37,208 nt of DNA from an uncultured Desulfobacteraceae bacterium. GTDB taxonomy: Bacteria; Desulfobacterota; Desulfobacteria; Desulfobacterales; Desulfatirhabdiaceae. The stretch covers positions 1-37,208 of the forward strand of contig CAJBLH010000179.1 in assembly GCA_903953895.1 (NCBI GenBank). The letters run 5' to 3'. Under the pieces are notes generated by a model that made no database searches, was not told the origin of the DNA, and was given only the letters and a program-made list of their open reading frames with translations. Positions within the stretch are counted from its first letter, which is position 1. Every line of letters starts with the position of its first letter. Of the stretch, positions 35,505 through 37,208 are shown piece by piece. The position numbers and the translations under genes were made by a program.

Positions 35505-36447
35505 TTACTTCGAGACGCCATCAATCCACCCTCTTTCGATAAGTTGATCAACAGAAATGAGCGAATCGGCATTGAGGCTGATTGCCCAATTGCGCGTGGG
35601 GCCAGTACCGTTTGACCGTTCAAACCAAATGCCCGTGTCCGCAGCCAGGAAATTCAGCACGCACGGATGGTGAGAGATTATCAAGCCTTGCCGGGTTTCT
35701 TCTTGACACATTTCATAAAGGCGATCCAACCAGGGTTGCACCTCTGGTAATGCAAGAAAATTTTCCGGCTCATCGACGCAAAGGGTTGCATCATTATCAG
35801 AAAAAAGCCCGTAGAGCGCTGCATAAAGACCAATCAGTGCTTTTTGCCCTTCAGATATCTGCCCAAAAGGAATATCAATGGACTTTTTGCCGACATCGCT
35901 TTCAAAGCTTGCATAAAGAATCTTGCCCTCTCCAGCATCCTTAAGTCGCAATGTATGAAAACCCGGCAAGCGAAAACGCAGATCGCTCGTCAGTTTCTGA
36001 ATAACATCCGGCTGCGCCTGAGCCAGATATAGACTTTCAGAAAAATAATTTCGCGGCGTTATCGGTCGGAGATATACTACAGTATGATCTCCTCCCTGCT
36101 GCCTTGCGAAATGAATTTTCTGAAAGTCTATAGCGATACCAATCGGCAAAATCGTTCTGATTCGACTGTGGAGATATGGCTTCTCTACGGCTTTCATCAT
36201 TTATCATATCTGGAGCAATGCGTAGTATCCACACCCGTGAAAGACGTTCCTTGAACCATGTCATTTTCGTGGTGTCTTTGCCGGCCATGACGAATCCAAC
36301 TCCTGATTGGGTCCAGTCCATGGGAAAGTTAGGTCCTGCAGAGCCGTTATCCCGATAGAGTTGAGCCGCTCCCTTGATTGACTCAAACAATGGCGATTGA
36401 TTATATATCAGTCGTTCTTCGGCAATATGCTGCTGATGATTGCACAA
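35505..36447 (-). pseudogene. AAA/ABC-type ATPase (AAA_21/OLD-like) gene disrupted by a miniature element
   Basis: Two frames together encode one ATPase. The upstream part (36447 to 36133) ends NQNDFADWYR; the downstream part (from 36026) continues LAQAQPDVIQKLTSDLRFRL. Removing 103 bases (36028-36130) joins them as WYRYLAQAQPD with no other change, giving a 279-residue product. It has the signature-like ISEGQKALIGLY, Walker B LCVDEPENFLAL and H-loop IISHHP, ending LIERGWIDGVSK, as in stand-alone AAA_21 ATPases. No P-loop is found upstream on the minus strand, so the 5' end also appears lost. Such ATPases often belong to defence systems, but no intact partner is visible. Confidence 0.85.
36028..36132. 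mobile_element. Miniature inverted-repeat element (MITE) inserted at a TA site
   Basis: The ends form 27-base inverted repeats with two mismatches: outer part TATAGACTTTCAGAAAA and inner ATTTCGC on each arm (36028-36054 and 36106-36132). A central hairpin (GGAGAT-ATACT / AGTAT-ATCTCC with a 1-base bulge, 36068-36092) lies between. A TA flanks each end as the apparent target duplication, leaving a core of about 101 bases. No coding capacity. TA duplication points to an IS630/Tc1-mariner-type transposase acting in trans (inference). Its removal with one TA restores the ATPase frame. Confidence 0.88.
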
Positions 36448-36766
36448 GCAAACAGCGTGCCGCGGTCAGATGAATTCTCATTTCCATAAGCGAATATCAC
36501 GCAGAATAACTCTCATCCCCCAAATAAGAATGGATGGCAATTCGTTACCGTCTATCCGACAGGAGCGGACGATGTGTTATGATCATTTTCGGAACAGAAT
36601 GAATGAAATTGAATCAGGATCGATACCGATCCGATCCATTTGTACAGATTTTCAGAAAACTCATTCGGCATGGCATCGGAGCATGGGGTACATATCAGGC
36701 CGATAACTGCGAAATTGCCTTCCTGCAATGCCAATGTTACCCATTCCTGTCAATCTCTTGACAAGA
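36448..36766. other. Stretch without a supportable gene
   Basis: Between the broken ATPase and the PIN remnant I find no frame with a recognisable family on either strand. The short minus-strand frames are 60 residues or fewer with no ribosome site. The lost 5' part of the ATPase would be expected here, but no P-loop is seen. Confidence 0.5.
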
Positions 36767-37009
36767 TCAATATGTATTTTCAAACATAACATTATGAGCT
36801 GTACAACCAACAACCTTGGCAGTTGATTTCAATCGATCATCGTTTGTTCAGATTTCAGTACAACCATAATGAAGAGCCGTAGCGAGATGAAGTGCATCAG
36901 GAACCTTGATTTGGTGACAAACGCGCAGTTGAAGAGCCATATCAAATATTTTACCGAACTGAAGTTCATCAAAGGCCAAAAGCAAGGAGCTAATCGGCAG
37001 AATGGTGAT
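36767..37009 (-). pseudogene. PIN-domain (VapC-like) toxin remnant with in-frame stop
   Basis: The frame ITILPISSLLLAFDELQFGK, then LRVCHQIKVPDALHLATALH and YGCTEI is the C-terminal half of a PIN ribonuclease (VPDALHLATAL with the catalytic Asp). At codon 54 a TGA (36848-36850) stands where the family usually has Trp, followed in frame by TNDDRLKSTAKVVGC to a final stop. The N-terminal half with the first catalytic acids is missing: a TAA lies just upstream. It is a dead toxin gene. No intact antitoxin is next to it. Confidence 0.78.
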
Positions 37010-37107
37010 TTAAATGACAAGCCGGGGCAATTCCCGGATGTATAAAGGTAAGGGTTCATGATCCTTATTTTGCCATCTTTGTGCGTTTTAGCCCCTTGCT
37101 TTTGGCC
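36974..37107. repeat. Inverted repeat with 20-base arms
   Basis: GGCCAAAAGCAAGGAGCTAA (36974-36993) and TTAGCCCCTTGCTTTTGGCC (37088-37107) are complementary at 19 of 20 positions, 94 bases apart. The first arm lies inside the PIN remnant, so the outer arm may mark a duplicated and inverted piece of that gene, or another small element's end. Confidence 0.6.
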
Positions 37108-37189
37108 ACTTTCAGACACTTGATTCTTCACGGGCTCTTCTTTATAGATATGGTTCTCGTAAACACAGCTTCCAAGAAAGGATACGCCC

Positions 37190-37208
37190 ATGAAGAACTT
37201 TTTTATGA
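37190..37208 (+). CDS. Possible start of a plus-strand gene at the window edge
   Basis: An ATG at 37190 follows an AAAGGA site by about 8 bases and opens MKNFFM before the window ends. Too short to identify; listed because the ribosome site and spacing are good and because it would mark the change of strand at the end of the cluster. Confidence 0.35.

Follow-up and report, generated by a model that had tools for sequence, protein, structure and literature searches.

A probably IS630-mobilised, Correia-like MITE family with two end types around a conserved internal core, one copy of which lies in a decayed ATPase gene

Among described systems, the Correia elements of Neisseria (CREE/NEMIS) resemble the MITE treated here in their TATAG ends, inverted repeats of about 26 bp, terminal TA and target duplication; the sources give main forms of 104–157 bp, more than 120 copies per genome and a directional core (PMC2649163, PMC5039591, PMC2229807). 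The mode of Correia movement was not settled in 2009 (PMC2649163), and mobilisation of such repeats by a transposase had as yet no experimental support in a 2007 review (PMC2229807). A precedent for IS630 mobilisation is RUP of Streptococcus pneumoniae with IS630-Spn1, which shares with the present element its size (107 bp), TA target and proposed mobilisation in trans, but differs, by description, in the listed length of its inverted repeats, 9 bp, and in having an IS partner that is frequent within its own species; a second end type or a box pair is not mentioned in the excerpts available (PMC2229807, PMC3049150). Flood et al. report TATAG-ended repeats that are structurally nearest to Correia-like MITEs (PMC4853749), and we liken them to ours by description. 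The MITEs of Thiomargarita and Beggiatoaceae have TATAG ends as well, and in Parabeggiatoa and relatives they measure 88–95 bp with ends close to those called type I below; these loci differ from the present family in holding no box 5' within two mismatches. By title or abstract start, no description of the present family was found in the open-licence literature.

The window, by which we mean the whole stretch of 37,208 nucleotides that was analysed, comes from an uncultured Desulfobacteraceae bacterium. Between 4651 and 34536 its minus strand carries FliF, FliD and flagellin genes, two very large glycosyltransferase genes of 1101 and 1814 aa, and genes for sugar nucleotides; judged by its gene content, this is an island for flagellin glycosylation. 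The features relevant here lie further along:

35505..36026, minus strand, C-terminal part of an ATPase, Pfam AAA_21 (Pfam and orthologue alignment)
36028..36029, no strand, TA, left copy of the target duplication (inverted-repeat check and orthologue comparison)
36028..36054, plus strand, left terminal inverted repeat, type I, TA included (repeat and end comparison)
36030..36130, plus strand, MITE body, 101 bp (orientation per covariance model R1, 121.4 bits on the plus and 61.7 bits on the minus strand)
36055..36067, plus strand, internal box 5' (window copy GGCGTTATCGGTC; family TGCGTTATCGGTC)
36068..36092, plus strand, apical palindrome, differing among genomes and covarying
36093..36105, plus strand, internal box 3' (TCCCTGCTGCCTT)
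36106..36132, minus strand, right terminal inverted repeat, type I, TA included (two mismatches against the left repeat)
36131..36132, no strand, TA, right copy of the target duplication (inverted-repeat check and orthologue comparison)
36133..36447, minus strand, N-terminal remnant of the ATPase (aligns to orthologues from about residue 106; alone, no Pfam match)

The two ends form a 27-nt inverted repeat in which 25 of 27 positions match (93% complementary), exactly to the base as a preliminary description of this DNA had placed it. The 103 bp given there correspond to one TA plus the 101-bp element, which becomes 105 bases with both TAs. Typical features of bacterial MITEs are present, namely a length of 101 bp, no coding capacity, 27-nt inverted ends and many copies, and the single strand folds with a z of -8.5 against shuffles (DNA parameters).

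The element interrupts the ATPase gene. The N- and C-terminal parts were compared with orthologues as two separate proteins, with no prior joining of frames: the first ends ...FADWYRY and the second resumes LAQAQPD, and three orthologues are unbroken across the insertion point (L185, NFTSWYRYLSQDQG; L186, NFTSWYRYISQDQG; L199, NFTSWYRYVSQDQG). These orthologues lack the insert, also as coding sequence, and provide at the protein level an empty site supporting the TA duplication and the proposed boundaries. Removal of the insert had been said to restore the frame exactly. A frame does return, but the protein it encodes is without about 105 N-terminal residues and the P-loop: L185, L186 and L199 have 105–134 extra N-terminal residues including a Walker A loop of the form GxNGSGKS (GRNGSGKS, GVNGSGKS and GKNGSGKS, respectively), and tblastn of these missing parts against the whole window did not find them (best E 0.25, located elsewhere in the window). 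Frames upstream of 36447 contain many stops. Because the orthologue N-terminus and P-loop were not found in the window, the 280-codon frame is that of a truncated gene. For the same reason, the recency read from the intact downstream frame is a weak argument; such a frame gives little ground for dating an insertion in an ATPase that is otherwise decayed. The C-terminal part had no match in plasmids or viral contigs. The end of the contig has the appearance of an area of gene decay, with broken frames on the minus strand (36448-37208) upstream of the ATPase remnant; one of them reads KVPDALHLATALHYGCTEI*TNDDRLK, which on inspection by eye is similar to part of a PIN-domain (VapC-like) protein.

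Copies of the element are abundant in the same genome and in relatives, so that its ends are far from being confined to this site. End-like 17-mers (up to two mismatches) number 97 + 84 in the own genome versus 5 + 1 for the reversed control, and the nine best copies besides the one in the window are 98–99% identical (BLAST, 40 of 166 candidates scored), which makes the element young relative to its family, as had been proposed. Covariance model R1, built from 41 elements, gives 120 matches at E<=0.01, or at least 108 distinct places once 12 both-strand duplicates are dropped by eye, a lower bound obtained from 150 scored among 2678 first-look candidates; all but four rows span model positions 1-105. 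A search with the window element matches 18 of 57 genomes of the order, the own one included (E<=1e-3), while R1, under stricter filters and with 10 candidates scored per genome, matches 100 of 389 genomes of a class sample at E<=1e-5. In ten of these 100 the best E is above 1e-8, and the matches may be other hairpins. Weak R1 matches need not be members, since the score reaches 36.5 bits on the box-less Beggiatoaceae MITEs. The element is without match in plasmid and phage collections.

Own-genome copies lie mostly outside ORFs of at least 120 aa (83 of 91 fetched), and the fraction covered by ORFs is 0.20 at a distance of 5 bp versus 0.69 overall, both according to simple ORF calls; a copy inside a dead gene is thus unremarkable. 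The first base outside the TA is G or T at 66 of 86 ends (p 7e-7; 43 copies with TATA at both ends). The genome also holds one-ended remnants cut at varied internal points (L040, L041, L046, L049, L053, L054, L056, L058, L059), some of them just 17–23 bases of end. One-sided truncation of copies was considered and rejected because the one-ended set was picked from exact right-end matches, which renders any side bias meaningless. In some places two elements share a junction TATA (L224 521-727, L235 412-640 (G055) and C130:33599-33814 of the own genome, G000), as if one had inserted in the terminal TA of the other. A third subfamily was recognised by eye in the host genus (L359, L367 (G000), L399 (G006)); its core GTCGTCAGCGTA is like that of the distant genomes G578, G477 and G766, suggesting horizontal arrival. 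In G420, G030, G286 and G265 there is a variant of 125 bp whose apical palindrome is long (L265, L266, L268, L269).

Duplication of TA is the mark of IS630/Tc1-mariner transposases. Two DDE_3 matches exist in the own genome and neither has the element's ends. The IS630 at L038 was rejected as partner with 10 of 25 bases against the window's left end, and so was L039, presumably ISAzo13-like, whose ends do not match. No transposase of the matching IS630 group was found in the own genome, a 315-contig draft that could lack one. The two-contig assembly of G055 yielded only a transposase fragment with a stop and no matching ends nearby, and among the DDE_3 loci of order relatives (L060-L088; 29 fetched of 63 listed, own included) no end was within two mismatches of type I. 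Within the host genus, G001 and G002 have weaker transposase matches with different ends.

Similar ends were found further afield. An end-pattern scan of named genomes returned at least 84 loci, likely including chance matches, of which 80 were examined. Among the matches listed are IS630 elements of 1432–1448 bp from a Bathymodiolus methanotroph symbiont, with left end TATAGACTTTCAGAAAATTAATTTC, and one 1436-bp IS630 with similar ends from a Cycloclasticus symbiont; the closest end match in this set is in Pseudomonadota, outside the host phylum. The encoded transposase has DDE_3 and winged helix-turn-helix matches. Compared with the window's left end over 25 positions, type I IS630 ends agree at 24 and 21 (L093, two ends), 24 (L108), 23 (L316, single end found) and 20 and 21 (L321, two ends), against 14 and 9 for IS630s of other groups (L064 and L334). 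IS630 elements with similar ends, for which the preliminary description had advised a search, were found in other genomes at 20–24 of 25 bases, and the host assembly yielded none. At least seven IS630 copies (L093, L123, L143, L146, L150, L153, L166), and more by end spacing, lie in a single draft genome of a Bathymodiolus methanotroph symbiont; L093 and L123 have an open 434-codon frame and the other five are shorter or broken.

Used as query, this transposase matched 38 of the 389 class genomes (E<=1e-10, four candidates scored per genome). The MITE occurs in 18 of the 38 and in 82 of the 351 genomes without a transposase match (p 0.003), a comparison in which many of the 38 have other ends and the MITE calls in G572, G694 and G763 are weak. 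G629 and G512 carry a type I IS yet are outside the 100 MITE genomes. Among 27 transposase loci fetched, L316 and L321 have type I ends, three (L317, L318, L320) have a second type, TATAG..TTTTGGGG, hereafter type II, and most others are quite different. The three type II IS ends match the left end of a type II MITE of the own genome (L343) at 19–24 of 27 positions, compared with 18 of 27 for the L316 end and that of the window copy, so that the lowest type II match is barely higher; the likeness of MITE and IS end types is throughout a comparison between genomes. The seven transposases with type I or II ends are 41–85% identical to one another. In their small tree, type II forms one clade (100/98) that L321 joins (99/100); the other type I transposases stand beside L064 and L074 without resolution and on long branches.

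The two end types also divide the MITEs. Automatic typing of 180 elements gave 132 with type I at both ends, 29 with type II at both and 19 mixed or unclear. Both MITE types are present in G000, G055, G709 and G645, the last three being one genus. G709 and G055 each have a single type II copy, whose apical core is 97% identical to that of a type I element within that genome and on average 62% identical to type II cores elsewhere. The effect is mild in G000 (best-partner mean 0.76 vs 0.62) and absent in G645 (one pair, 0.68). The case for the same core under two ends is thus strong in one genus only. Two hybrids were observed: L366 has a type II left and a type I right end, and L377 a type I left and a worn type II right end. 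They are the two retained from five automatic hybrid labels; the other three (L209, L378, L253) seem wrongly typed or cut short. The simplest source of such end exchange would be recombination, or gene conversion, within the boxes that both types share.

The boxes, TGCGTTATCGG and CTSTDGCCTT, are kept better between genomes than the inverted ends. Over 20 rows, or 19 genomes should G006 and Umea1 be a single one, as appears, identity is 0.98 in TATAG/CTATA, 0.76 in the remaining end positions (6-27), 0.51 in the apical part and 0.82 in box 3'; the 0.96 of box 5' is inflated because this box (up to 3 of 15 mismatches) was used for selection, which box 3' was not. Relatives found by BLAST favour conserved stretches. 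In a sample picked by ends only, both boxes were present in nine of nine paired elements of one genome (by eye, one or two mismatches). The exact box 5' 15-mer occurs in 8 of 395 phylum genomes versus 1 of 395 for the reversed control; L270 (G187) has the left box only, and L267 (G068), with the 15-mer but neither ends nor second box, looks like chance and was discarded. The preliminary description, with its simple MITE of ends and hairpin, is right on the element, wrong in taking the gene to be otherwise whole, and missed the conserved core and the two kinds of end.

We consider it very likely that this MITE family resembles the Correia elements, is mobilised by IS630, can exchange its ends and keeps its core for a putative partner. 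IS630/Tc1-type transposases of one sequence group, with ends TATAG.., would move the element in trans, reading both 25–27 bp ends, inserting at TA and preferring (A/C)TA(G/T). That it is a non-autonomous element of the IS630 type, as proposed earlier, is supported by the ends it has in common with IS630, the TA flanks and the copies, all of them sequence comparisons. The family would be modular, each of its two end types resembling the ends of one subset of that IS630 group, and would retain an internal cassette of box 5', changeable palindrome and box 3', within which recombination may have exchanged the ends. Selection would keep the boxes, most probably as a site on the DNA for a protein of the host or one related to the element. 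The copy in the window may have landed, or been kept, in a gene now also without its P-loop.

Alternatively, the boxes might be leftovers of the founder in a passive MITE that had too little time to diverge. We regard this as unlikely. The own-genome copies are indeed young, and since IS loci and the box-less Beggiatoaceae MITEs have similar ends, boxes are not required for end recognition as such. Passive leftovers do not, however, fit the higher divergence of the ends read by the transposase (0.76) than of the boxes (0.96, inflated, and 0.82), the far higher divergence of the palindrome (0.51), or the finding of boxes with two end types.

Still less probable is a structured RNA, either a substrate of RNase III or riboswitch-like, with stems maintained as RNA. 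The hairpin is strong and covaries: 25 of 37 pairs show double changes against 15.8 +- 2.0 in shuffles, and in the main helix of the apical stem all seven pairs are changed on both sides. Covariation of the ends would also follow from a single protein reading the two. RNase III is able to bind and cleave Correia elements (PMC2649163). Counted by cell, A-C mispairs exceed G-T (61 to 20 in other genomes; 37 to 13 in the A1 arms), and folding favours the reverse strand by a mean of 3.8 kcal/mol and in 19 of 22 groups; the two findings would suit a reverse-strand RNA. Counted by distinct type, in contrast, G-T and A-C are close (10 and 13 in the arms, 7 and 8 in the apical stem), in own copies they are nearly equal even by cell (28 and 29), and most of the A-C excess falls in lineages that are shared. 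Selection at the RNA level thus leaves a reverse-strand lean by cell and no clear signal by type. Moreover, Rfam 15 gives 0 window matches at the gathering threshold, and the orientations of ORFs neighbouring the copies are spread 21/18/15/9 (n=63). That a different enzyme, REP/RAYT-like or IS200/IS605-like, spreads the element and that the TA is fortuitous is most improbable, as the hairpin form and intergenic habit that the element shares with REPs stand against matched ends of 27 bp, an empty site with one TA and near-identical IS630 ends.

Comparison with the Correia elements themselves gives a suggestive link at the level of sequence. By the published end, 12 distinct elements were fetched from IMG/VR contigs (organism not given). 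In 11 of the 12, GCGTT lies at +28/29 and GCCTT 31 from the right end, compared with +29 and 32 in the present MITE; in the twelfth (L411) the first box is changed. A positional test of the boxes, post hoc in that it was devised after the match was seen, gives p 0.0018 for the 155-bp and 0.008 for the 106-bp form, and box 5' alone 0.04 and 0.07. R1 finds the 106-bp CREE in register at E 1.6e-4, where an unrelated hairpin reaches 6e-4. The Correia terminal repeat TATAG[TC]GGATTAA..., by eye, shares only TATAG with the MITE here, and the cores are mostly different.

A core kept while the ends change is the opposite of the usual MITE expectation and points to a putative binding partner. Bacterial MITEs have reportedly been mobilised in later papers (PMC3189936, PMC4133298), so that MITE mobilisation in general is no longer open, although for the Correia-like branch it may be. 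Since this family offers IS630 candidates that are intact, ends of two types and naturally occurring hybrids, Correia-type mobility becomes a question for a plasmid assay. Much more speculatively, and in our view doubtfully, an ancient superfamily across Desulfobacterota and Neisseria might carry a conserved, protein-bound core cassette and replace its ends to follow the available IS630. If so, its most familiar branch would be the Correia elements, and the missing Correia transposase would be an IS630 of the TATAG type.
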